This document shows, piece after piece, positions 2,948 to 64,000 of a DNA stretch of 64,000 nucleotides (the first letter of the stretch is position 1; every line of letters begins with the position of its first letter). The position numbers and the translations under genes are program-made. This stretch comes from Inia geoffrensis. Lineage: Eukaryota > Chordata > Mammalia > Artiodactyla > Iniidae. The notes below the pieces were generated by a model, which ran no database searches, was not told where the DNA came from, and worked only from the letters and a program-made list of their open reading frames with translations. The stretch covers positions 6,634,001-6,698,000 of the forward strand of contig CM070911.1 in NCBI GenBank assembly GCA_036417435.1, given 5' to 3'.

Positions 2948-34134
<31,187 letters not shown>

Positions 34135-36899: not shown

Positions 36900-36980
36900 A
36901 TGGCGCTGTGCGAGGCGGTGGTGTGCGGAAGCTCTGTGCTCTGGCCTCGGGTGTTGCTCTTCGGTGACTCCATCACCCAG
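36900..36980 (+). pseudogene. IAH1: IAH1 exon 1 (coding part)
   Basis: ATG to CAG, 27 codons, MALCEAVVCGSSVLWPRV then LLFGDSITQ. Contains the GDSIT block-I nucleophile serine. The start codon sits in a weak context (gataATGG) but matches the family N terminus. Donor gtactg. Confidence 0.95.
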
Positions 36981-38927: not shown

Positions 38928-38980
38928 TTTTCTTTCCAGCAGGGTGGGTGGGGAGCGTCACTGGCGGACAAGCTGGTCAG
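38928..38980 (+). pseudogene. IAH1: IAH1 exon 2
   Basis: Acceptor ctgcag, donor gtgaga, 53 nt; FSFQQGGWGASLADKLV plus two bases of Arg. Carries the block-II glycine. Intact. Confidence 0.94.
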
Positions 38981-39364
38981 GTGAGAGTAGTTTCTAGATT
39001 CCTACTTGACTGTTTATTGATGGAGAAAAGAGTGAATGATGCAGTTTGAAACAGTAAGTTCCTCTTTTTTGTCTTTGCAGGCCTTTCCTAGTTAGTGTGT
39101 ATCAGGGGTTGGGGGAGAGAAGGGCAGCGCTCAGGTTCAGTTAAACTTTGCCACCTCATGAAACCAAACCCTAAAAGTTGTAAAATATATTAGGGGCTTG
39201 GATCTGAAAATACAGCTATTCACTATCTAAACAAGACAAGTTCTTTTTCAGTTACGGTGGGTACGAGTTAAATAATTAGCAAGGAGTTCAACTGAAAGAA
39301 TACAAAATATATTCTAAAACCAAAGTTGGATTCATTTTTGGATAGAGATTTTTCCCCCCAGATT

Positions 39365-43227: not shown

Positions 43228-43376
43228 AAAATGCGATGTTCTGAATCGTGGATTTTCGGGTTACAATACCAGATGGGCGAAAATTATCCTCCCGAGGCTA
43301 ATCCGGAAGGGGAACAGTTTGGACAGCCCAGTAGCAGTTACAGTTTTCTTTGGTGCCAATGACAGTGCGCTAAAAG
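43228..43376 (+). pseudogene. IAH1: IAH1 exon 3
   Basis: Acceptor atttcag, donor gtaaag, 149 nt; [18 protein letters not shown] to [11 protein letters not shown]. Carries the block-III GAND motif. Intact, but a CHR SINE ends 33 nt upstream of the acceptor. Confidence 0.95.
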
Positions 43377-45535: not shown

Positions 45536-45699
45536 GTGAGAACCCCAAGCAGCGCATCCCCCTGGAGGAGTACGCGGCGAACCTGACGAGCACGGGGCTG
45601 CCGTTGCAGTCCGTGGGCGTGCCCGAGAGCAGGCTCTCATCCGCATCACGCCGCCGCTGCTCTGTGAGGCCGCGTGGGGACAGGAGTGCCTCAGGCAAG
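45536..45699 (+). pseudogene. IAH1: IAH1 exon 4 with frameshift
   Basis: Acceptor aacag, donor gtgagc, 164 nt. Frame 1 gives GENPKQRIPLEEYAANL; the conserved downstream peptide LIRITPPLLCEAAWGQE is two bases out of register. The simplest lesion is a duplicated CT within CTCTC at 45634-45638. The stretch between (TSTGLPLQ, where human has KSMVQYLK) is also diverged, consistent with relaxed constraint. Confidence 0.9.
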
Positions 45700-46524
45700 G
45701 TGAGCGCAGCCGGATGCCGGGACCAGGGAGGAGCAGGTGGGACCTGGTCTCCAGCCTGGGGCCTTGGCTTCATGGGGGCCTGTGAATTCCCGTCTGTCTG
45801 CTTTAGTCGACAGAAGTTAAAGCAGAGCTCCCAGCATGTCGTAGCGTGACGCAGAAAAGGATTCTGGCCGTGCGTGAGTGAGGGCCCGGGCCTGGTATCT
45901 GCCCGACTCCGGGGTGCACAGGAGGCCACCGCCGTGGCGCTGAGGGTCGGGCTGGGTGCGCTTTGACACTGACATCCGCACTCGGGGTGTTTTCCTGACT
46001 TCTGAACAGCAGGGGGAGGTGGCTTTGCCCATTTCCGCCTGCACGTGGCCCTTGCTCCGCTGCCACCAGTTGCCACTGCCAACTGGTGGTTGAGTGATCG
46101 GAGGCTGCTCCGGGGCTTGCCAGCGCCAGGGTTCTGGGTCCCGTTCCGTCCCCACCAAGTATGCATCTTGGCACTTTTACGTGCTATACCAGGACCTGGT
46201 CTGGCGCGCAGGATACAGAGATGACTAGAACCCAGTTCCTGCTGTTGGGCTAGCAGGGGAGGTAGGCCAGCTGTCATCACATATTTGAAGGGCGCCGTCA
46301 CATAAAGAGGACAGAACGCCCTGCTTGTTAGCTCCAGAGGGCAAAGGGAAGACCCCCATGGGTACCGTCAAGGGCGATTTTAGGTCAAAATGATCGCTTG
46401 TGAGGTGGAAAGTCGCTACAGGAAGCATTGAGGCTGAGCCTGGATGGGCAGAGGAGTGCGGCCAGAGCTCAGTGCTTCTCATGTTGCAGGTCACAACCCA
46501 TGCGCGGATCGCAAAACCAAGTGA

Positions 46525-46760
46525 GTTGTGACTTTTTTTTTTTTTTTTTTTTCCCCCGGTACGCGGGCCTCTCACTGTTGTGGCCTCTCCCGTTGTGGAG
46601 CACAGGCTCCGGACGCGCAGGCTCAGCGGCCATGGCTCACGGGCCCAGCCGCTCTGCGGCATGTGGGATCTTCCCGGACTGGGGCACGAACCCGTGTCCC
46701 CTGCATCGGCAGGCGGACTCTCAACCACTGCGCCACCAGGGAAGCCCTATTGTTGTGACA
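46525..46760 (-). mobile_element. Short CHR SINE, reverse, with TSD
   Basis: T22 head, tacgcgggcctctcactgtt to gccaccagggaagccc; TSD GTTGTGAC. Inserted in an old hAT MITE (gcttctcatgttgcaggtca). Confidence 0.95.
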
Positions 46761-46897
46761 TTTTTTTAATGGACTATAATAGAAAAATCTGTATCTAGAA
46801 TGCGGTGGGCACGTCTCATGAGACTGTTGCACTCTTGTAGACGTGCGTGTAATGAGTCCTGCTGTATCACTCTAGTTTTAGCCAGGTTTATGATTTT

Positions 46898-47075
46898 GGA
46901 CCATGCGTCGTTCTCCCGTGGTCCCAGATTAGCAGACCAGCGTCATCTGGGAACTTGGTAGAAGTGCAGATTCTTGGACTCATCCCAGACCTGTGGAAGC
47001 AGAAGTCTAGGGGAGCGGCCGGTGCACCCCCCGGTGATCCTGGTGCACCTGAGTGTGAGAGTCCCTGCACTGCGG
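46898..47075. mobile_element. hAT-type MITE (MER5A-like)
   Basis: gtggtcccagattagcagac, gggaacttggtagaagtgca, cagacctgtggaagcagaag. Diverged. Confidence 0.6.
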
Positions 47076-47099
47076 GGGCGGTGGGCAAACCACGCCCCG

Positions 47100-47256
47100 T
47101 CGCCTACAACAAACACAATTTCACTGGACGACAGCCAGGCCCATGGTTTACATGTTGTCTGTGGCTACTTTGGAGCTGTGACGGCAGGGCTGAATAGTTG
47201 CCCGTAAAGCCTGTCTCCTATCCAGCCCATGGCAGAGAAAGGTTGCTGACCCCCCC
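47100..47256. mobile_element. Half of hAT-type MITE
   Basis: gacagccaggcccatggttt to gcagagaaaggttgctgacc matches the right part of the MITE at 27803-28175. Confidence 0.65.
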
Positions 47257-47744
47257 AGGCTGGCCTGAGTGACCTCTGTGCTCCCTTCCAGCTCTCACCT
47301 TCTCTGGTCCAGAGTCTGCAAGTGACTTTTCCAGTACGTGGCTGTGGCTTCTCATTACACATAACAATACAGGGGCCTGAGCCCAGCGGTCCTCCCCACC
47401 GTACCCCACAGCGGTCACCTGCCCAACTCCGTTCGCCTCTGGCCTGCACTCTAGCCAAGCCGCTCAGCTCCCCCAGCCTTTTCTGCCTCTGTGTCTATTC
47501 GGTGTCCTCCAAATGCCCTCCATGGCCCCTCATCCCCATCGTCCTTGGCCCTGTGCTGGGGAGGGCAGCACACTAGTGACCCGTGAGGCCCGTCCTTGTG
47601 TCCCCCAAGCCCCGTGGCTGGCCCACTTTGGGTCTGTAAGCACACGCCCGTTCACTTGAACTGAGAAGCCCTTCAGGTGGTAGAACTTGCACAAAGACCA
47701 GCACTTGGGTTTATCAGTTGCACAGTGGACTCTCTTCTCAATAG

Positions 47745-47871
47745 GGTGCAAATTATATTGCCTCAACTCAGTCGTTGGTGAATATGCCATGGCCTGTTTA
47801 CAAGTAGCCCAAGACTGTGGGATTGATGGGATTGATGCACTTGACCTGTGGACCCTGATGCAGAAGGACAG
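47745..47871 (+). pseudogene. IAH1: IAH1 exon 5 with duplication, premature stop and phase error
   Basis: Acceptor caatag, donor gtataa, 127 nt. In the inherited frame it reads [20 protein letters not shown] to [19 protein letters not shown] is repeated in tandem at ~47820-47837, adding three residues (GIDGID). The exon ends two bases into a codon, whereas exon 6 needs phase 0, indicating a further 1- or 4-base loss near the end. In the frame delivered by exon 4, TAG at 47805-47807 terminates translation. A second potential donor, gtgagt at 47899, gives the same wrong phase. Confidence 0.86.
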
Positions 47872-49316
47872 GTATAATGGCATGCTCGGTCCTGTCGGGT
47901 GAGTAGGGTCACGCAGAAGTGACCACGCTGTGCACCGTCCGCCTGGAGCAGCTCTGAATGGGTGAGACAGTTGTCCTTTTCACCAAATGGAATGAAAACG
48001 TTGGCTGGAGTGGAGGAGCTGCAGGGCCGCCTGCAGACCCAGCACCGTGCTTGGCCTGCTGCTGTACCGGCACCCAGCAGCTGGCACCATGCTCTGGGAG
48101 CCCCTTTAATAGGAGTTGGCATGTAGTGAACTGAACAAGCCATAAGTGGTTCATACTTGAGAACACCCAGGCCAAGTTTTACAATATGGAGACGGCGGGG
48201 GGGGGGGGGGGGGGGGCGGGGGGGCCTTAGAAGAGGCAGCACAGTGCACTTAAGTAGAACATAGTATTAACTAAAATTCATATTTTGAGGTACGGAGTTC
48301 TAATTGGCTTAAAGCCAGAAAGCCCACTTACGAATATAAAAGGTAAAAAGCCAGTCCCCGTGCAGAATGACACAGCCACCCCCGAAGACAGCATGACAGC
48401 CTCCTGTACAGTTAAACAAACATGCGCTTACGTGGGACCCAGCAATCCCACCTCAGACGAGAAGGCCGTGTCTGTGTTCCTCTGCACCCTGACTGGACTT
48501 GACCCACCTCATGCGTTCCCAGGTCAGGAGCAGGCTTGGCCATGTGACCGCTGAGACAGCACCCAGAGCTGTTTTTGTCTGCGTTACGCTTTCACCTGAG
48601 ATGGTTTGGAAAAGTAATGCTGCTAGAGAAAAGGAAACTGCAGACTGCTGGGCTAGTGGCTCTTTGAAAGTCCTTTTAGACTTACTTAACGTATTAAGAG
48701 TCCAGAGCTGGGAAGTTCTTCCTCAGCGATCATCTGACCTAACACACACAGCAGCGATGAGAAAACTAAGGCCTGGGAGGAGTGTGACTAATCGGAATCC
48801 CTGGTCTGCAAGTCATGAACCAGCTCCAGGTTCTAACGGGGATGGGGCATGGGTGGAGCTCCCGCGTAGGGAAAGGATTCTTCCCCAAAGGAGAAGGGGC
48901 TCCAGGGGTGGGGCATCTGGACTCTGGACGGTACAAAGTCTTTTCGTCTAATACTGTGCCTGTCAGTTTAATTCCTAGACTGAGAAGAGTCAAAAACAAT
49001 TTGACACACTGGGCCCTGAGCTCTTGTAACAAAGTTTTCACTTCGTTGGCTACATCAGTGTGCTGTACTCACTCATTGATTCTCTTCTTCCATCTGCTGA
49101 CCTGGAACGACACTTCAGCTCAGGCGCTCATTAATGGCGTGAGGTTCTGTGACGCTCCCTGTGTCATATGCAGACACTGTCCCTCCACAAAGGGCGTGGG
49201 AGCATTTGATGAGCTGACGCAGCACCAGAGGCTGCTGTTCAGGCCGGGGACTCGCCACCTGGGGCCACAGCTGGGAGACCAGCCACACTTTTAACTGCGT
49301 TCTCTTCCCCTTACAG
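47872..49316. other. IAH1 intron 5
   Basis: Apart from the poly(G) tract no element is recognised. Open frames up to 159 codons on either strand show no family resemblance. Confidence 0.55.
48197..48224 (+). repeat. Poly(G) tract G20-C-G7
   Basis: G20 at 48197-48216, one C, then G7, in IAH1 intron 5. Could fold as a G-quadruplex; length is likely polymorphic or uncertain in assembly. Confidence 0.9.
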
Positions 49317-49571
49317 GACTTTTCTTCCGATTTGTCAGACGGACTACATTTATCACGAAAAGGAAATGAGTTTTTGTTCTCCCATCTTTGGCCTTTGATA
49401 GAGAAGAAAGTCTCTTCCCTGCCTCTGCTGCTCCCTTACTGGCGAGACAGAGCCGAAGCAAAACCAGAACTAAGTCTCCTGGGAGATGCGGCCCCACTAG
49501 TCACAGAAAACCAAGTCCAGCTGCTGATCTACAGAACAGGAAGTCGCCAGTGCACAGAGACCCCAAGATAA
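49317..49571 (+). pseudogene. IAH1: IAH1 exon 6 (coding part), extended C terminus
   Basis: Acceptor ttacag. Reads [19 protein letters not shown] to [12 protein letters not shown], carrying the catalytic Asp-x-x-His. After LLGD the frame continues for about 25 more residues to TAA at 49569-49571, whereas the human protein ends five residues after SLLG. A CACTAG a few bases on, out of frame, is probably the old stop displaced by one base. Confidence 0.88.
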
Positions 49572-51226: not shown

Positions 51227-51586
51227 CTAGCACTCGGTTTCCTTGCTGTGAATGCGGTTCTGACGCTGCAGCTTAAAGGACGAGGCCTTTTCACTTCTGG
51301 TGACCGGATGGCCCGTGAGATCCTCGAACGACTTGGCGGCCGCGCTGCTATTTGGGAAGGGGTCCTTCTCGAAGCCGTCCTCATCGGCGTGCGAGTCCGT
51401 GCTGGGGTCCTCCTGGATGGTGTCCATCCGCTGGTGGTCCAGCTTTGGGGCCACGGGCACTGAAGGCGCGGGGGGCACCGCAGGGGCGGGCTGCGGGGGC
51501 TGCAGGCGGCCCGGGGTCGGGGGCGCGGGAAAAGGCTTGATGATGCGAACCGACGCGGAATCCATGCTGCTCAGCATCTCCACGTT
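51227..51586 (-). CDS. ADAM17: ADAM17 terminal coding exon, cytoplasmic tail
   Basis: Acceptor ttccag; 119 codons plus [22 protein letters not shown] opens the tail; Thr735 is kept in PPTPGR and the end is HSKETEC. Between GRLQP and APKLDHQ there are about six more residues than in human, rich in Pro, Val and Ala. An upstream in-frame reading through the intron is not coding. Confidence 0.96.
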
Positions 51587-54500
51587 CTGGAAAGACACGG
51601 AGTAGATGCACCCCAGGTCCCACAGTCCCAGCCTCACCCGGCAGACGGCCGCGCCCGTCGGCGTCCTGATCCCCACGCTGGGGAAGGCACCCCGAGAAGC
51701 GACTCGAGCGGTTAGCGTTCAAGTCCTGACACGCCGCCGTTTGAAGACCCAAAGGAGACTCGTGAGAAACAACGCTGTCAGGATCCCAAGACAGGAATAG
51801 CTCTCTCAGTGTTAAACTAAGCCCGTGCTGAACAGCTGACCACTCAGGGCTGCGGGGAGGGCAGCGGTGCTGCTTTCGGTCTCAATCCAAGCGACTAGCA
51901 AACGTTCACTGTCACTGTCATGAGAACTGACCTTAGCATCCAACCCAGATCCCTCCTGCTACCACAGGACCTTCCAGCCAGAGAAGGCGCCGCTGGAAAG
52001 GCTGCTGGCTCTTGCTGGGGAGGCCAGTGAAGGTCTCTGCTTAGCAGGCCTCAAAATACAACCGAGAACGACACGTGAGAGATACTTACACTGGGGTGGA
52101 ACAGAGACAGCGATTCAAACTGCTTGTCCAGTTTCTTATCCTAGAAAGAAGAGCAGAGCAGCGTCACTCCTGCGAACAGCTCCGTTCAGCGCCCCTTCCT
52201 CATGAGCCCCTCCTACTGTCCAGGGAAGAACAAACTCAGAGCTGGAGGTGTACAAAGTGGGAGCAGGTCGCGCAGAGGAGGAGGAACTTCGCGGCCACGC
52301 TTTAAGGGTTCTGCCCAAGTGTTTGCACGTCAAGGAAATGTGTTTTTTGGCGTTAAGTAAGGAAACAGGCAAGGTTTAAGTGCTGGTGTCTGAGGCCCCG
52401 CCCCGGGCAGGAACAATGAGGGCGGCTCCGTGCGGCGCCCTGGCCATGAGGGCTGGTCCCGGAGGCTGAGGGGCTGCGCCCGCCGCCTCGCCCGGCGCTG
52501 GCCTCCCAGCGCTCCAGCCCGCCGGAGCCTCGTCACTCCTCCCAACCGTGTCCAGGGTCGCTGTGGCCCCAGCTCTTGGCGGTGCCAGGCCTCGAGTCCC
52601 GACACACACCCTGCAGAAGGCTGGACACGTGGCCCGCCCTCCGCCCTCGGTCCCTGCCCGGGGCCTGGCTTCCAGCCCGGCCGCCCTGAACGGCCGCTGA
52701 GGTCAGAGACAAGCCACCGCCCACCCTCCCGTCGGCAGCCCTGTGCAGAAATCGAGCGTCAGGCCTCTCGGTCCACAGTGGTAACTCTCGCCGTAAACCA
52801 CGCAGGTCTGACTCTCAGGTAAAAGCGACCGTAACGGACGGCACCATCGCCCATCTGTCAAAGCCTCCACCGTGTCCCCTTTTAACACCGCTCCACTTTC
52901 ACAGGGCTTTTCCTGGCGTCCGGCAGGCTCGCTGCCCGAGAGAAGAGCCGTTCAGTGAGAGCGTGCAGCCGAGGGAAGGCACGGGGCCGTGAAGACCCGA
53001 GAGCTCGCCGGGCCGGAGCATCCCACGTGCTTGCGGGAGGGCCCCACGCAGGGGTTTCAGGCCTGGAAGCCTGGCCCTGACGTCCTCGTCTCTACACAGC
53101 AGACAAATCCTCCTTTTCCCACAGAACAGGACCAGGCCGCCCAGAGAAGCCTCTCGAGCCCCTTAAGCCCTCCCCGTGACAGTGCAGGGATAAAATCGTG
53201 TTTCTGTGGACAGCAGAAAGGTCTGACTTAGGCGAGTCAAGCTGCCCGTATGTCTTTCCGATCCACTCGGCACCCGTCTCAAAATCAAACTTTATAAAGT
53301 GCCTGGAGTTTCTCAAAGCCCTATTCAACTGTTAACTGTTACTCATTTTGAATAATAAAGAAGACGGCTCCTTCTCCTCACGTGGAAGCATCTGAGCGAG
53401 CACCCCAGGCGACGATGCCAAGACTGCAGACCTGATGGGGCAGCATGTCTGGAATGCTGCTGTGTGGCATCTGCTCTGCCACAGCAAAGTCGGCCTGGGT
53501 GCACTCGTTGAGAAGCTTCACTCGTCAGAGGTCCTGGACAAGCCGAGTTAACCAGTCTCCTGTGCTTAGAAGTATAAAACTCCTCAGAAATTATACATGA
53601 GAGCAAAATATCTGCGCACAAAAAGTGTAATTTTTTAAGAGACCATTAGTTAATCTTTTTACAAAAAATGCTTTCCCAGGGATAGCACCAAAAATGTCAT
53701 AGGAAACAGCAGGTCAGATTTTTCTAAGAACAAATTTTTATCTTTTCCGAAGGTAACATGGTTCAAGTTGCTCAAAATTTTAATAAAATGTTTCATTACT
53801 TAAAAACTGGTGACTTACCACACAATGGACCAGAATGCTGAAAGGAATCCAAAATATCAAGGAGAAAACCAGGACGGAACCTACGATGTTGTCTGCTAAA
53901 AACTTCCCTGTGAACAATTCCAAACAGTGAATGTCTTGACCAAGTACTTTGGAAACTGACAATGCAACGTTCTTCGAGTATTATCACGTGTCAAACGGCA
54001 CAGACTGCTGGTGGGATGTAACAGCTGAGCTGGTACCGAGAAGCGTTTCTGTGCCACCTGCTCTACACCCAGCCGTCCCCCCACACGTGGGAGCGCTCCC
54101 CGGAATGGCCCCATGTGCTTGTGGAGAACAGGTCACATCACAGGAGGACCCACACAGTCCCCGGAGGGACAGTGCAGGGGACTCATCCTGGAGGAGGCTC
54201 CTACTAGGAAACGAGGCTTGCGAAGACAACGCTGATGCTGTCTGGGTACTACTGTTTTTGTGACTAAACCCTAAATTATGAGCCCTAGAGGACACAGTGC
54301 ATCCTTGCTTCTGCAAAGTGAGGCCCACTTTTAAATAAATGACTCATATCAAGCAGGATTCAGCTTTACAAGCTACAGGACTGAAGGACACTTACGCTGT
54401 CACATGTTCATTTTTTAGTAAAGAAGCCAGTATTTTTACTTCCCTTGTCTGAAAATTTGTGCATCCACACTACACAGGGGCAGACCTATAATGTGTCCAC

Positions 54501-57500
54501 TTTTTTTTACCCAACAAAGTCGTTTCAGAACAAAAGTAACTATTTCCATCTTCTATTGCACGATTAGGGCCTATCAGTCTGAAACCATACTTTTCTAATG
54601 TCATCAGTGAAATCAGCTCAGTTCCAAGCAACCACCCACCCGGGGAAACCACGTACCAAAAGTATTGATGCTCAGCTTGTCGATGAACTCCCAGAACCGC
54701 TCAATGACATCCTGCACTCGCTTCTCACATTTGCCCTGGGAACAGGAAGCACCCGGCATTACCCCAGCAGCCACGCCTTTAGAAGGAACATGGCTTCCTT
54801 CAAGTCAAACACACAATTAACACGAAAAGGGCTCCACTGAAACCAAACGGCCAGGAGAGCCCTCTCTGACACACTGGAATGGGTACCTAAGAAGGTAGCA
54901 TTCTCTGTCACTGACACTCCACAGTCAGTCCATTTTTATGAGTGAATTTAGAGTTACCAGAAGACAAAACTCAAGAAAACCAGTTTGTTAAAGATGGGCC
55001 AATTCCAGTAAGGGCTGCACTGATCTCATACACACACTGCCAGAGAAGCCTCTCGAGCCCCTTAAGCCCTCCCCGTGACAGTGCAGGAATAAAATCGTGT
55101 TTCTGTGGACAGCAGAAAGGTCTGACTTAGGCGAGTCAAGCTGCCCATAGGTCTTTCCTGCCCACTCGGCACCCATTTCAAAATCAGAGCTTGCAACCCT
55201 GCAGAATTAGTGACTTTTATAATTAGCCCAGAAAACCAAGTAAGTAGGACTCCCTGCCTCAAACTCAGCTTTACCACAAAGTCCCCCAGGTCCTGCCCAG
55301 TCTCCTGAGAGCACCTGGTCCTCTCCTCCGAGGTCACACGCACAGGACATAACTAGACTCTCACACAAGGACAACGGATAGACGTGCCAGCATCTGTGCT
55401 CTGATTCCCTTCCATTTGCCAAAACCAGCATTTACAAAATAAAAACTTCACATCTGGCTGTTAGAGATAAAGCTGTAGATAAATAAATACTCACATTCAT
55501 GTCACAAAATCCTACTGTACAGGGCTTTCCCTTCCTCAAAAATAAGTTCTTCTGTTCGGCGTCGACATAGGGCAGGCAGCGGCCCGAGGGGTCCCTGCAG
55601 CACACCTTGCACGAGTTGTCGGTTTCTGAAACAGAGCAGAGCCTCTTAGACACGCGCTCTCCTCCTGCCTGTCCACCTCCTACCCCGCTCCCGCAGGGAA
55701 GGAATCGCACTCATTTTTTATTCCAACAGCGAATACGATCCAGTTTTCACACCCCTCGCCTCCCCTCCCCCCGCCAAAGAGTAACTCCTGAGTTCAGGAT
55801 CCTCAGCCCTCAGAGAGGTAAAGCAAAAGGTAAAAACGATTTACATGGAAAAGTTGCCTTTAAGAGATTAAAAGGCAGATAATTCTACTTCATACCCTTC
55901 ATAATGCTAAATGATCCCCTTCGTCCCAACGTTAGTACACTGCGGGTTTCAATCCTTGGCTTCTCAGTTTCCAGCACACTCTGGAGAGCCAAGGCTCCAG
56001 CGAGAGCCAAGCCACTGTAACAGAACTGCCGGCCTCGGGTGCAGATCTGAGTGACCCACCAGCGACAGGAGCACCGCAGCCTAAGCACGACCTCTCCCCT
56101 CCATGGACACCAACCTCCGACAGCACGTGGGGTATTTGGCACACGTACAAACGGCAGGAATGTCCAAAAGGTCAACAGGCCGTATAACTCGGGACAATCT
56201 TTACTTGACCTCTTAGGAAAAACTGAAATCACCCAGAACACAAAAACAAGCAAAACCACTTTAAAGGGAAAACAAAAACCTTTTCGTCATTCATTCACAT
56301 ATCAAGCATTTCCTGGGCATTTACTATGTGTGCTTCCAGGGCACCCCAAGCCTCTTGCCGCTCACTGAATAAATCATCTGACATTTACTGTGTGTTATCT
56401 TTATTTACATGTTATTCCACCTGGAAGAGCCGCTTGCTCCACTGTGTGGATGCTAAGTGCCCATCCCAGGGGTTCTGACTTCTGGGATTTTTGTTGTGAA
56501 AGCAGCAGAACTCTCTCTGAGGGAGGGCGGGGAGCTCAGAGCCCAGCCAGTCCCTCGGGCCCTTCCTCAGACCCAAGGGTTCCAAAAACAGTGTGGAAAT
56601 CTGAGGACAAGGGTCTCAGAGGCCGTGGCTGAGAGGCCCCTGCCCCAGGCGTCTGGCAGGGAGCGGCGGTGGCTGGCCCAGCAGACGTCCCGACAGAGGG
56701 GGAACCCGGGCCTGGGCCGCGCCGGGTGGGTCCTGAACGGCACCAGAGCTCGAGGTCAGCGGGAGGAGGAGTGAGGACAGACCTCCAGCTGCCCGCCCTT
56801 CCGCAGTGCCCTCTGGCCTCGCCGCCAAGCGGCCTCACAGTCTGAAAACACAGCCCCAAGGGAGACGGACAGGACGGCTTCCGGAGATGACCATGGAAGG
56901 AGCGGGTCCTGGAGGCAGCGGTCCGTCTGCACACACCACCCGCTGCTCCCGCCCTTGCCCTGCTGCAAGGATGGGCAGGGCCACGTGCTCACCGTTACAT
57001 GCGCAGGACTCCAGCCTCTGCTCCCGCTCGCAGAAGGGCACGCACTTGCCATCTTTACACTTGCCAAGATCCAAGCACACCGTGTCGTCGGCAGCATCGC
57101 CGGGAGGGGGGCACTCACTGCTGTTACCTGCAGCACGCAAAGGGCACACGGGCTGTCCTGAGTCATGTGGCCCAGTTCCACGGGGCGGCCCGTGTCCCAG
57201 CAGCCAGGGAGCACCGAGGCCTGGCCACGCCGGGCACTGAGCTGCCCGCTCCGCCCAGCGTCCACTCGGCCCCCGTGGCCTCGCCTCCATCACTACTTAA
57301 ACGTGCCAAGCATTCTGCTTTTACCTTTATATTGTGAAACATAACAAACATACAAAAGAATGTATACACAAAAGAGATCTCTACTACTATCACCAATAAA
57401 AGACACCTGTGTGCCCTCCCTTGACTAAGACGCAAACTCCCTAGGAAGGCACACGACCGTCCCCAAGCCACACACCGGCTCCAACGGCCTCCCTTCAATG

Positions 57501-60500
57501 TACTCCATTTCTCTCTCACCTCAGAACCTGACTGTATGTGCTCAGTACCCACAATGCTCTCGTCTCCACTCTTTCAGGAGGACTGGCTGTTCCCTTCTCA
57601 CCCTTCAGATTTTCTCTCCAAGACCTCCTTTCTCAGCCGTCCCCAAGGACCCTGCCTAAGCTGGTGGCCCCTCACCCCCGCCATGCTCTGTCACTCCACG
57701 GGCTCCTCCCCTTCACAGCACGTTTTACAATTTACCTCTATTCGATTACCGGTGGTTATTTTCTGTTTCTTACCACCAGACTGGCAATCTCCATGAGAGC
57801 AGAGACCAAAACTATTAATGAATCAGTGATGTCCAATCCCTGTCACACTGTAGGAAGCCACAAATACTTCTTAAATGAATCAATGATTCTTAAGGACAAA
57901 GAAAAGCCAAGCAAGGATGTTAAATTCGAGAGAAAGGGTGGAACGAATGACTCATTCTGGAAAATGAGAAGCACGAGCAGTTGAAAGCCAACACTGAAAG
58001 GGAAGAGAAAGACCACTGCACGGAGACACAACAGGCCTGGCCTCTCCATTGAGGATCGGAACCGGTCAAAAGATTCGGACTCAAAGGGCTGTGAACTTAA
58101 AGGAATCTGCCCTATTTCCTACAAAAGCAGCCTTTCATTAACTACCTAACACATATGAGACACTTGCTTAGGCTACTACCTCTGCCTCTGGTTTTATAAA
58201 ACCCGTTATGGGTGCTGGGCATTCAGAGTGCCAACAAGACTGTCTTATAGCAAACTCACTGCCACTGAAAGCAAGCTCTGGAAAAAGTACAGCAAGTTCA
58301 GTGAAGGTTTATATTCTGTATTGTCACCATATTTTTAGTATGTTATGCTGCCCTCAGCAGAGACATAAAAAATGCTTTAGAATATTTGTTGAACATCTGT
58401 TCTTAAAAGATTAAAATTAGAGTATAAAGCGCACAGGAAAATAATTAAAAACATAGCATCACCTATTTAACATGGTACTCAAAGTGGAGCATGCATCAAG
58501 ATGTGCCAGTGGATGCTGCAACAGAGTGCTGGGCCCTGCCCAGAGCTGCCAGTTGCAGGAGGCCCCGGGGAGGGGAGCAAGCATTTCCATTTCTAACAAG
58601 AGCCCAGGTGATGCTGCTGCTACTTTGTATAAAATACCAAGGGAACAAAAGGCTGTTTGAAAAGGAATATCATTTTTTCAAATTGTTTTACCTACAGTTA
58701 TTTAAAGAAAACATCTTTCTATCATTAAAGACAAACACTGAGCACAGCTAGAAAGTGTTTTTTAAAGACTGATTGAGATATTCAGGCTCTTGACATTTGC
58801 CAAACTGATGTGATGCTGACAGATCTCAATGTAAGAATCATAAGTAACATCTTATAAAATGCACATGTAAAAGCTGAAGGAAAAATCAAAATGAGATAAA
58901 ACTTCGCATCCACTAGGATGGCTACAATCAAAAAGACAGGGGAATTCCCTGACAGTCCAGTGGTTAGGACTCCACGCTTCCACTGCAGAGGGAATGGGTT
59001 TGATCCCTGGCTGGGGAACTGAGATCCCACAGGCCGTGTGGTGCGGCCAAAAAAAAAAGACGGACTATAACAAGTGTTGGTGAGGATGTGGAGAAACTGG
59101 AACCTTCACACATGCTGGTGGGAACATAGAATGGGCAGCCATTTGGAAAACAGCCTGGCAGTTCTTCAAAGGATTAAACTTCCCTGGCGGTGCAGTGGTT
59201 GAGAGTCCGCCTGCCGATGCAGGGGACATGGGTTCGTGCCCCGGTCCGGGAAGATCCCACATGCCATGGAGCGGCTGGGCCCGTGAGCCATGGCCGCTGA
59301 GCCTGTGCGTCCGGAGCCTGTGCTCCGCAACGGGAAAGGCCACAACAGTGAGAGGCCCACGTACCGCAAAAAAAACCAAAAACCATAATTCCACACAAAA
59401 ACTTGCACACAGGGACTTCCCTGGTGGCACAGTGGTCAAGTATCTGCCTGCCAGTGTAGGGGACACGGGTTCGAGCCCCGGTCCGGGAGGATCCCACATG
59501 CCACGGAGCAACTAAGCCCACGCATCACAACTACTGAGCTTGCGCTCCAAAGTCCGCGAGCCACAACTACTGAGCCCACGTGCCACAACTACTGAAGCCT
59601 GTGCACCTAGAGCCTGTGCTCTGCAACAAGAGAAGCCACCACAATGAGAAGCCTGCGCACCACAACGAAGAGTAGACCCTGCTCACCACAACTAGAGAAA
59701 GCCCACGCACAGCAACAAAGACCCAATGCAGCCAAAAATTTAATTAATTAATTAATTAAAAATTGGGTGGGTTCATTTAAAAAAAACTTGCACACAAATC
59801 TGCATAGTATCATTATTCATAGCAGCCAAAAAGCAGAAACAATCCAAAATTCATCAATTGATGAATGAATTAAAAAATGTGATACATCCATACAATGGAA
59901 TGTTATTCAGCAATTAAAATAAATGAAGGACTGATTCATGCTACAACATGGATAAACCCTGAAAACATTATTCTGAGGGAAAGAAACCCACATATTGTAT
60001 GATTCCATTTATATGAAACATCCAGATTAGGCAAATCCATAGAAAGTAGATTAGTGGCTGTCTGGAGCTGGGATGATGAGGGGACTCGAAATGGTGGCTA
60101 AAGGGTGCAGATTTCTTTTTTGAGGTGATGAAAACTGACTGGTAGGTGGATGCACAAATGTGAGTATACTAGAAACCACTGAACTTACACTTTAAATGGG
60201 CAGGTGGTATTATATGTTAATTGTGTCTCAATAAAGCGGCTACAAAAATCAAACCAAGCAACCAAAGGGCCCAGAAATTAGCAAAATACACAATGGGATA
60301 TAGATACACCAGACAAACAGGAACAAGAACAACAAACAGGGAGCAGACTGAATATTAAACAAGTTAAAACAGTATATGTGTAACGGACTCACTTTGCTGT
60401 ACACCTGTAACTAACACAACATTGTAAATCAACTATACTCCAATAAAAATTTTTTTTATAAAGTTAAAAGAAATCACAAGGGTCAAAAAGGAGCATTACA

Positions 60501-63372
60501 TACTGATGAAGGAATAGCAGATCAAGAAGATGCAGAGAATATGTCCAATCATGTACCTAATAATATAGCTTTTGGAGATTTTTTAAAGGAACAACTAACA
60601 GAACTACAGGTAATACTGATAATCAACACAATCTCAAAATTAGCTCCAGATAAAGTCCTAAATGTAGGGCTTCCCTGGTGGCACAGCAGTTGAGAGTCCG
60701 CCTGCCAATGCAGGGGACATGGGTTCGAGCCCTGGTCTGGGAAGATCCCACATGCTGCGGAGCAACTAGCCCCGTGAGCCACAATTACTGAGCCTGCGCG
60801 TCTGGAGCCTGTGCTCTGCAACAGAGAAGCCGCGATAGTGAGAGGCCCGCGCACCGCGATGAAGAGTGGCCCCCGCTTGCCACAACTAGAGTAAGCCCTC
60901 GCACAGAAACGAAGAGCCAACACAGCCATAAAAAAAAAAAAAAAGTCCTAAATGTAAAGGGTAAAACTATGAAGCTACAGAAGCAGCTGTGGAAAATATC
61001 TTGATAACCGCCCACAATTCAAAACAATAAACACACAAACAAAATGACAGATTTGATTCGAGTGGAAGATTTCAGTTCCAAAAAGGACAACAGATAGGAG
61101 GAAGGCATATGCAATGTTTAAACCAAATGGATTATCATAAAAGAACTCCTCCAAATCAATAATAGCAAAAATGAAATGCAATTTTTTAAAATGGACCAAA
61201 TAAATGAACTAGTTATTCACAAAAGGAGAAGTCTAAATAGCTAACAAATATAAAGAGATGTTCAAGAAAAATGTAAATGAGAAGAAATCACTTTATACTC
61301 ATCAGACCAGCAAAAAAAAATAAGACAGCTAGATAACACAGTGTGTCAGCAAGGACATCAGAATACAGGAACCTGGACCACTGGCAGGGGCACCGACAAA
61401 ACCCGTTACTGCTGCTCTAGAGCACGCTGGAGTGCCTCCCTCCACGGCTAAGCAATTCCACTCCTCCGTATGCACTCAGCAAGCTCTCAGAGCTCCCAAA
61501 GTAGATGTGTAAGGGTGTTCGGCATAGTCCCATCTGCAGTATTAGGAGATACAGGCAAATCCAAGCAGCTGCTGCTTGGCGAACAGATAAGTAAAATATA
61601 GTAAATCACAAAACTAAACACTCAGCAAGTGCCCAAAACAATGAACTAGATACAAAGATTCAGATACACAGACAGAAATACAGGGCAATAGAAAACAGAG
61701 TTGTAAAAACATGGTATTGAGTTTTAAAATGATCTAAGGTAGAGTATCATTTTGGCACGTTAAAAACACACATATACAGAAGATAAACACACTATCTTTC
61801 AAGGATATACACCTATCTAGGCAAATATTAGACACGTTAAAGCAGATGCCTATGAAGGGAAGGAGAATGGAAGTAAATAAAAGGGAATAAACAACGAAGA
61901 GAAATAATCAACGGACCTTGCACAGACCAATGACAAGTGTGCTGAGATCAACTCAACTCTGCACATGAGGTAAAAAAAAGAAAGAGCTATATTCATCTGA
62001 ATGAAACACAATCTTGCTTTCCAACACACACATACCTGTTTGAGCAAATTATTCCAAGAGAACCAACGGGAGGACATACCTGTGCAGTAAGACACGCCTT
62101 TGCAAGTAGCATTAATAGCCTCTTGGCACTTCTTCTGGGCCGTCTCGAACTGACAGTTTTTACAGCAAGGACTGTTCCTATCACTACAGAGGAAGAGCAG
62201 ACAGTCCAAGTCAAAGGACAGCCCCACAGGACAGACTATGGTCATGTCACAGGGCCCTGAAATGGCAGGGCAGGGGCTCCTGGCTGGGTCACCCACTCCC
62301 GCACAGACTCCCAGGTGCTATAGCACCACCTGCACATGGTCCATCTGCCTTTCCTGATGCAGACTCACACGGCACAGTGGTCCAAAGTGACCCATCTCTA
62401 AAACATCTTGGGGTCCTTGGTTTTCATTAACTTAATACAGTAATTAAAAAAAAAGGACTTCCCTGGTGGTCCAGTGGTTAAGACTCCACACTCCCAACAC
62501 AGTGGGGCATGGGTTCGATCCCTGGTCAGGGAACTAAGATCTTACATGCCGCATGGCGCAGCCAAAAAATTAAAAAAACAAAAAAAATTACACAAGCCCA
62601 CAAGGCAACAGTGGTCAAGAAACTAGTCAGCCCTATCAGTATTTACAATGTTAACATGCACTGTATACCGTTAAATCTGTTACCATAAATTAGTTTTCCC
62701 TCCTACTTCTAAGCCAGGCACTGGATGTTAAAAATGGAAATGTAAGTACCTTCCAACTCGTAACCTGCTTCCTCCAGTTTCTGGGATTAAACAGTATTCT
62801 CCAACACTATTTACAGTACAGATACACAATAATTTATGTCCCAGGATTGTCATTTTGATTGTTTCCCATATTTTGTTATTATAAAAGAATGTAGCCATGA
62901 ACATCCCTGCTAAATCATCTTTGTACATCTCTGTTTCCTTAGAAAAGATTCTTTGTACTATGGCATCGCTACAGCAGAGAGGATGCAAGATGGAGGATTT
63001 GTGATACAATGTCACATTGCTTTCCAGAAAACATTTTTCTCGCTGTAAAGGGCAGAAGGGGTAAACACACACTTGCCAGGCCCTGTGATGATTCTAGAGC
63101 CCCGTGCTTTCAGCCCGCTGTTGTGAGGACCCTTGTCAGGCGCCCAACTCCACCCCGCGCCACGCTCCTCACCTGCACTGGACGCCCGGCCTCAGCGTGC
63201 AGTCACTGTTGCAGCAGGTGTCGTTGTTCAGGTACATGATGCCGGGGTCACACTCCTCCCCCTCGTCCACCCTGGAGTTGCCGCACACTTTGTTGCTGCG
63301 TTCTTGAAAACACTCCTGGGCTTTACTTTCAATGGTCTTATAGATGGACTGTTTACTGCAGTTTGAAAACAT
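51227..63372 (-). CDS. ADAM17: ADAM17 (TACE), 3' portion of gene, 8 coding exons
   Basis: Gene-level entry. ADAM17 is the membrane metalloprotease that sheds TNF, EGFR ligands, Notch and other ectodomains. Eight minus-strand exons join into 382 codons, corresponding to human residues ~449-824 plus six. Visible in order: disintegrin domain; cysteine-rich membrane-proximal domain with the CKVC redox motif (Cys600/603) and phosphatidylserine-binding RKGK (625-628); the CANDIS juxtamembrane helix ([15 protein letters not shown]); a 23-residue transmembrane segment ([20 protein letters not shown] and HCV); and a cytoplasmic tail with Thr735 (PPTPGR) and C-terminal SKETEC. All splice sites are canonical and the frame is open. 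The tail has a longer proline-rich stretch than human. Prodomain and the zinc-binding HExxH catalytic exons lie right of the window. Confidence 0.97.
52090..52140 (-). CDS. ADAM17: ADAM17 exon, residues ~695-711
   Basis: Acceptor ttctag, donor gtaagt, 51 nt, phase 0. Encodes [17 protein letters not shown], the membrane-adjacent cytoplasmic segment (human has Tyr at the Phe). Confidence 0.96.
53140..53290. repeat. Copy 1 of ADAM17 intronic ~150-bp duplication
   Basis: Starts ccagagaagcctctcgagcc; nearly identical to 55039-55189 in direct orientation, with scattered substitutions increasing toward the right end. Confidence 0.93.
53819..53907 (-). CDS. ADAM17: ADAM17 exon, residues ~665-694 (transmembrane)
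   Basis: Acceptor ttcacag, donor gtaagt, 89 nt. Encodes GKFLADN followed by a 23-residue hydrophobic helix ending ILVHCV. Confidence 0.97.
54657..54735 (-). CDS. ADAM17: ADAM17 exon, residues ~639-665 (CANDIS)
   Basis: Acceptor tcccag, donor gtacgt, 79 nt. Encodes [19 protein letters not shown] and KLSINTF, the amphipathic juxtamembrane stalk helix. Confidence 0.96.
55039..55189. repeat. Copy 2 of ADAM17 intronic ~150-bp duplication
   Basis: Same orientation as copy 1, offset 1,899 bp. The two copies lie in different introns (the one upstream and the one downstream of the CANDIS and TM exons). Confidence 0.93.
55495..55625 (-). CDS. ADAM17: ADAM17 exon, residues ~595-638 (membrane-proximal)
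   Basis: Acceptor tttcag, donor gtgagt, 131 nt. Encodes [20 protein letters not shown] to CTVGFCDMN, with the CKVC thiol-isomerase-sensitive motif and the RKGK lipid-binding patch. Confidence 0.97.
56993..57127 (-). CDS. ADAM17: ADAM17 exon, residues ~550-595
   Basis: Acceptor ctgcag, donor gtgagc, 135 nt. Encodes [20 protein letters not shown] to RLESCACN, from the end of the disintegrin domain into the membrane-proximal domain. A 4.95-kb repeat-filled intron precedes it. Confidence 0.96.
57590..57885 (+). mobile_element. L2 3' end remnant
   Basis: cagattttctctccaagacc, ggcaatctccatgagagcag, cttaaatgaatcaatg match the L2 3' pattern ending in an AATGAATG-like tail. Confidence 0.6.
58930..59061 (+). 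mobile_element. Short CHR/Bov-tA-type SINE
   Basis: ggaattccctgacagtccag head, ends gtgcggcc plus A10. Flanking AAAAAGACAGG / AAAAAGACGG is the probable TSD. Confidence 0.92.
59178..59391 (+). mobile_element. Short CHR SINE
   Basis: acttccctggcggtgcagtg to cacgtaccgc plus A-rich tail; TSD not clear. Confidence 0.93.
59397..59797 (+). mobile_element. Long CHR SINE with TSD
   Basis: gggacttccctggtggcaca to aatgcagccaaaaattt, then (TTAA)n at ~59742-59760. TSD AAAAACTTGCACACA on both sides (59397-59411, ~59782-59796). Confidence 0.94.
60375..60460 (+). mobile_element. L1 3' terminus, severely truncated
   Basis: cactttgctgtacacctgta to actatactccaataaaaat: only the last ~85 bp of an L1. Confidence 0.8.
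60652..60956 (+). mobile_element. CHR SINE with perfect 15-bp TSD
   Basis: gggcttccctggtggcacag to acacagccat plus A15. TSD AAAGTCCTAAATGTA is perfect at 60652-60666 and 60942-60956. Confidence 0.97.
61265..61720 (+). mobile_element. Ancient L1-like remnant
   Basis: aatcactttatactcatcag, caattccactcctccgtatg and the following block have L1 3' order but are strongly decayed. Confidence 0.45.
62080..62183 (-). CDS. ADAM17: ADAM17 exon, residues ~515-550
   Basis: Acceptor ctgtag, donor gtatgt, 104 nt. Encodes [17 protein letters not shown] to CKGVSYCTG, the cysteine-rich second half of the disintegrin domain. Confidence 0.97.
62455..62587 (+). mobile_element. Short CHR/Bov-tA-type SINE
   Basis: ggacttccctggtggtccag head, B-box GGTTCGATCCC, ends gcgcagccaaaaaa. 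Confidence 0.94.
63173..63372 (-). CDS. ADAM17: ADAM17 exon, residues ~449-514 (disintegrin)
   Basis: Acceptor cttaag, donor gtgagg, 200 nt. Encodes [18 protein letters not shown] to CTLRPGVQC; contains the start of the disintegrin domain ([15 protein letters not shown]). Confidence 0.97.
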
Positions 63373-64000
63373 CTTAAGAGAAAAGAGGCCACATAGGACC
63401 CAAAATAACATAAAAATTCATTCCCAGGTGGTGTTTGTGCTTCTTTTCCAGGGACAAATTTTAACACAAAAGCCACAATCAGAACCACCTTGAAGGTATG
63501 TCAGGTTCACTGTCGCCTCTAAATGTCATTTGTATGGAATTGAGTCATGGCCCTCTGCAAGATGCTACCAAGGTGACATGAACGTGGTTAAGAGACTAAA
63601 ATTCTTCACAGGAAAGTAAGCTACACGAATGCTGAGACCAAACACCCCAGCCAGTCCAGCACGAGCAGAGTCACCAGACTCTAAGCCACCCCAGGATCAG
63701 GCACAGGCCCTGCTGCAGGGACACTGAGAACGGGGCACAGGCGGCCGTCTTCCCAGATGTAACGATCCAGGCCCGCAAAACAGGGTCTGCTCTGGTTTAC
63801 CTCTTCATCTTTCCCTGAATATTTACATCAATGATCCATGTTTAAAGTGTTTATATAGTTGAGCTTAATAAGAGGCATGTTATTACATATAGTCTATTAA
63901 AAGGCTAAATTCCAAATTATTACCTAAACGTTTTCATGAGTCCCCAAGATCTTAAGTTTCTTTGAGTTTCTACAGTTGATGAGCATCTCAAAGGAAGCCT

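Follow-up and report, generated by a model that had tools for sequence, protein, structure and literature searches.

Does IAH1, an esterase gene in other mammals, still encode an enzyme in this toothed whale, or has it become a pseudogene in place? The window, by which we mean the whole stretch of 64,000 nucleotides analysed, contains CPSF3 (forward strand), a six-exon IAH1 (forward strand, 36900 to about 49500) and ADAM17 (reverse strand). A sequence-only reading had found a frameshift in exon 4 and proposed that the gene is lost in this lineage. The loss is well supported, and by three frame-changing differences rather than one. The window IAH1 is very probably a unitary pseudogene at the original toothed-whale locus.

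Exons, lesions and predicted products

CPSF3 lies upstream of IAH1, and ADAM17 lies downstream in convergent orientation, which we take to be the usual gene order in mammals. Both neighbours serve as controls: the C-terminal part of CPSF3 (residues 173-684) is found in 13 stop-free blocks at 2993..34131 on the forward strand, and that of ADAM17 (residues 448-824) in 8 stop-free blocks at 51230..63375 on the reverse strand. The last exon of ADAM17 (51230-51586) has a proline-rich stretch six residues longer than that of the human protein. The later IAH1 comparisons use proteins returned by database searches.

All six IAH1 exons lie on the forward strand. Exon 1 (36900..36980) carries the start codon and the catalytic GDS motif, exon 2 (38928..38980) follows, and exon 3 (43228..43376) carries the Asn block, FFGAND; the frame is open in all three. 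Exon 4 (45536..45699) has 164 nt and AG/GT flanks, and its conserved peptide is split over two frames. Exon 5 (47745..47871) has 127 nt. The coding part of exon 6 (49317..49500) holds the Asp/His block, DGLH, in an open conserved frame. Thus GDS, GAND and DGLH are all still present in the window DNA. The six exons with their introns, together with the flanking genes, place this unprocessed gene at its original locus; they rule out a retrocopy or stray copy.

A protein search relates the window gene to mammalian IAH1: its first eight rows are 82-85% identical, seven of them named IAH1 and one unnamed. Pfam domains Lipase_GDSL and Lipase_GDSL_2 are found on the window IAH1 read-through. A PDB search with the full read-through gave 3MIL as its sole match (5.4e-19), and one with the exon 4-5 peptide gave 0 matches. 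By protein and PDB searches, IAH1 occurs from yeast (3MIL) to birds and mammals.

The first lesion is a duplicated CT in exon 4 (45634..45637, forward strand), at a place where the residues of relatives (five other whale species and hippo) are continuous. Up to 45633 one frame encodes ENPKQRIPLEEYAANL...VPESR; from 45636 a second frame encodes LIRITPPLLCEAAWGQECLRQ. The join reads CTCTC where the protein models of relatives have an unbroken R-L-I or R-L-V, which gives a gain of 2 nt. Proteins from sheep, hippo, Mesoplodon, Monodon and Phocoena align in one frame before the CT and in the other after it. In tblastn, IAH1 of hippo, Mesoplodon, narwhal, sheep and harbour porpoise finds both halves of exon 4 with E values of 2e-20 to 5e-10, and chance can therefore be excluded; the humpback protein finds them more weakly (6e-5 and 0.005). 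Frame reading, tblastn and relatives' models thus agree with the earlier explanation of the split peptide. Aligning exon 4 to other whales and hippo had been suggested as a check; this was done with protein models, and the CT duplication is absent from those of all five other whale species.

The second lesion is found at the end of exon 5 (47866..47871, forward strand). The exon ends in ...LMQKD plus the two bases AG, followed by gtataat, and the conserved frame of exon 6 opens on a codon boundary (GAC TTT TCT), so that the two exons are out of frame. Elsewhere the models read MQKDSQ-DFSS (narwhal, harbour porpoise, hippo), MQKDSQ-DSSS (humpback) or MQKDGQ-DFSS (sheep, bison), a comparison made without Phocoena sinus, whose model ends at MQK, and without Mesoplodon, which has no exon 5. 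The junction is intact in all three whale models covering it (Monodon, Phocoena phocoena and Megaptera). Judged from these alignments, lesion 2 appears to be a net loss of 4 nt in exon 5.

Another donor could in principle restore the frame. The interval 47800-47960 contains 12 GT sites, and the frame is kept without an earlier stop by two of them, 47803 and 47893; these score 5/9 and 4/9 against the consensus, the exon 5 donor in use scores 6/9, and use of 47803 would halve the exon. A strong donor-like site at 47898 (CGGGTGAGT, 8/9), 27 nt past the exon 5 donor, shares the wrong phase. Because the exon 5/6 junction is off-frame, correcting lesion 1 as an error would not bring the Asp/His block back into frame.

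Exon 5 also contains an in-frame 9-nt tandem duplication (47819..47836, forward strand), reading GIDGID where narwhal, porpoises, humpback and hippo have GID. The third lesion, a gain of one base, lies at a C run beside the former stop (49492..49500, forward strand), where the TAG at 49498-49500 no longer stands in frame. Seven bases (49493-49499) separate two anchors that are 2 residues apart in the Mesoplodon model, a yardstick that itself reads exon 6 in another frame. The exon 6 frame passes the old stop and continues to ...QCTETPR. Lesion 3, which adjoins a run of four C, is the least secure and possibly an assembly error. With it, three frame-changing differences fall within about 750 coding nt.

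When all six exons are spliced in silico, the shifted frame meets a premature TAG at 47805..47807 (forward strand). The product has 169 residues and the stop lies 64 nt before exon 5/6, the last junction, exactly the numbers given before. As had also been predicted, the catalytic Asp/His is missing: translation ends before DGLH, and the Ser, Asn and Asp/His blocks do not stand in one open frame. The frame is broken (exon 4 by +2, exon 5/6 off-frame) before the end of the catalytic domain. Skipping exon 4 yields a 163-aa product that terminates in exon 6, with DGLH not in frame. The later lesions do not compensate for lesion 1, because the full splice hits the 47805 stop first and the exon 4 skip leaves DGLH off-frame.

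An IAH1 transcript would be made and then either degraded by nonsense-mediated decay (NMD) or translated into the 169-residue fragment. From stop position, NMD is a fair prediction; 64 nt is near the usual limit of 50-55 nt. Such a fragment would retain the Ser and Asn blocks, lack Asp/His and be no SGNH esterase.

Other whales and the age of the loss

Five other whale species stand among the matches listed, all as gene-prediction proteins, from which we infer each damage. In four of the five, the IAH1 model is abnormal in exon 4. The exception is Mesoplodon (P0126, isoform X2), whose exon 4 is intact, whose exon 5 is absent and whose exon 6 is read out of frame. NCBI models of narwhal and harbour porpoise (P0007, P0032) contain LFSIG, and the porpoise also LHKIQRL; these residues align to the end of the window's intron 4, directly before the exon 5 acceptor. 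A second narwhal model (P0006) and Phocoena sinus (P0143) omit the final exon 4 residues, and six internal residues of that exon are absent from both porpoise models. The humpback model (P0055) has no exon 4 start and contains RRSVRP, which is what the window's exon 4 gives in the wrong frame; after this it regains the frame.

A protein search with the 169-residue product, aimed at whale models that share the CT, added Mesoplodon and Phocoena sinus to the species compared. The pre-shift part of the product (76% of the query) best matches, among the matches listed, the IAH1 of narwhal (92%) and beaked whale (91%), from which we place the window in a toothed whale. The whole shifted tail has no match among the best 120 of 2032 rows, in which the largest coverage is 84% (P0029) and most rows reach 76%; the 83% covered by humpback reflects the piece of wrong frame that its model reads too. 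Dolphin, sperm whale and river dolphin are not named among the matches listed, which says little, as clusters at 90% hide members. Read against the window, several public whale IAH1 models are probable annotation artefacts. PMC12462620, with its count of 314 genes lost in 57 cetacean species, warns that pseudogenes are often annotated as intact, and the abnormalities of the whale models fit this warning.

Evidence on constraint can be obtained from conserved sites, defined by agreement of all or all but one of 27 comparison rows chosen from the matches (26 named placentals other than cetaceans, plus the unnamed P0001). Changes at such sites number 12/145 in the window, 13/145 in Monodon, 14/143 in Phocoena, 18/141 in Megaptera and 2/85 in Mesoplodon (exons 1-4), some of the whale changes adjoining indels. 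The comparison rows have 1 to 10 (Lepus 10/150, Ochotona 8/149, Sus 7/149, the other 24 rows 1-5); rows with several relatives in the set score low because shared changes unmake a site, so that Lepus, Sus and Ovis (2/147) are the fairer yardsticks. As a protein proxy for relaxed selection, the window count is only slightly above that of the hare. Hippo has 9/132, all at residues 2-31 of a model (X3) with a different N-terminus, and none in exons 3-6. This N-terminus (MLECLLMEKRVN) matches intron 2 of the window at 39002-39037, and the X3 model seems to begin inside an intron.

Four of the window's 12 changes are common to Monodon and/or Phocoena, one is common to Megaptera and Mesoplodon, and seven are private. 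The shared residues H101R, L130R, M114T and D248A place the window nearer to narwhal and porpoise than to Mesoplodon, so that our guess for its source is a dolphin or river dolphin. The catalytic motif at 36960-36980 is GDSI in the window and Mesoplodon, and the models of narwhal, harbour porpoise and humpback have GDST, a distribution that does not fit a simple tree.

Taken together, these observations lean slightly toward a loss of constraint across Cetacea, early or repeatedly: in this reading the lesions, mostly in exon 4, would differ between toothed and baleen whales, with IAH1 kept in sheep and, for exons 3-6, in hippo. The other possibility, that the loss was late and confined to this lineage, other whales keeping an intact and constrained IAH1, is unlikely. 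It draws on the absence of the CT from the models of all five other species, on the intact 5/6 junctions of Monodon, Phocoena phocoena and Megaptera, and on Mesoplodon, with its intact exon 4 and few changed conserved sites. Against it stand the intron 4 sequence in the NCBI narwhal and harbour porpoise models, the six exon 4 residues absent in both porpoises, the missing start and partly wrong frame in humpback, and the conserved-site changes of Monodon, Phocoena and Megaptera.

The loss had been described as looking recent, on the grounds that promoter, splice sites and other exons remain. The splice sites do remain, with GT-AG borders at all five introns, but for the exons the statement is incomplete: junction 5/6 is off-frame, exon 5 holds the 9-nt duplication and the stop is shifted. 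Moreover, at assumed neutral rates, 5 to 35 My would bring only 0.06 to 0.8 hits in 20 splice and 3 start bases. With so few hits expected, intact splice sites say little about the age of the loss. Recency is unsupported: narwhal and/or porpoise share four of the 12 changes, and abnormalities are seen in most models from other whales. At three assumed indel rates, four indels in 747 nt correspond to 27 to 107 My, with wide error, a hint against a recent loss and toward an old relaxation.

Relaxation looks older and partly parallel among whales; constraint had probably been relaxed by the time this lineage separated from narwhals and porpoises, and the other whales would later have decayed by separate routes. 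Since lesions 1 and 2 are absent from the other whale models, the frame breaks may be younger than the relaxation.

Assembly error and alternative splicing

Indel errors of assembly or sequencing in an intact IAH1 could also produce broken frames. The data come from a single assembly, exon 4 is GC-rich (0.69) and lesion 3 adjoins a CCCC run. Lesions 1 and 2, however, lie outside homopolymers (longest run 2), and errors would have had to produce three frame errors and a tandem duplication within one short gene, while leaving the neighbouring CPSF3 and ADAM17 without a frame shift. The control comprises 13 + 8 blocks with 948 aa (short end overlaps included) and zero stops. At 18 of its 19 neighbouring block pairs the in-frame splice pair is best, although at many of these the best off-frame pair has the same donor and differs only by a weaker acceptor score; at the remaining junction (CPSF3 pair 5) the in-frame pair shares the top score with an off-frame pair that uses the same donor. 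Indel errors also leave the amino-acid changes at conserved sites unexplained. Such errors are thus a very improbable explanation.

Least probable of all is an altered IAH1 that survives by skipping exon 5, by which the exon 4 shift meets the conserved frame of exon 6 in a single 233-aa frame holding GDS, GAND and DGLH, with its stop in the last exon, and which the predicted beaked-whale isoform P0126, likewise lacking exon 5, might seem to support: about 60 core residues would be off-frame or missing, including the strand VILITPPPL of relatives, making folding doubtful, a nonzero shift matches by accident in one case out of two, and the Mesoplodon skip enters exon 6 out of frame.

Known systems and significance

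A unitary pseudogene therefore remains the preferred reading, and IAH1 is probably one more gene left to decay in whales. If constraint was indeed lost across Cetacea, an esterase that is widely kept elsewhere would have become dispensable with aquatic life, and several of the whale IAH1 "proteins" in public databases would be misannotated pseudogenes. Whales would also be a natural IAH1 knockout, and their metabolites, set against those of hippo and ruminants, could indicate the substrate.

PMC7224509 reports that Iah1-null mice are not embryonic lethal, with unchanged liver triglyceride and two adipokine transcripts lower in fat, and its authors describe what IAH1 does in the mouse as "largely unknown". 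As null mice are viable, loss of IAH1 can be tolerated. A link to odorant or lipid biology (smell, fat) in whales is speculation.

A term search did not find IAH1 named in the main texts of PMC12462620 and PMC5865188. No published IAH1 loss in cetaceans or mammals was found in the literature searched, though it may well stand in supplementary tables or ortholog screens; the two papers found on IAH1 and pseudogenes concern, by title, liver cancer and Candida.

In other mammals IAH1, an SGNH/GDSL hydrolase related to yeast Iah1 (3MIL), has the same exon pieces and the same GDS, GAND and DGLH motifs as the window. Unlike in those genes, the window's motifs lack one spliced frame that links them.

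The window IAH1 adds a case to a well-known class, cetacean gene loss. The cetacean losses of the Gene Loss DB, as described in PMC12462620, likewise concern single-locus genes with frame-breaking indels and intact neighbours. The loss of MOXD2 in toothed whales (PMC4125168) is alike in that an enzyme gene was reportedly inactivated, with a proposed link to olfaction. The present case differs in that the gene is another one and nothing here ties IAH1 to olfaction.
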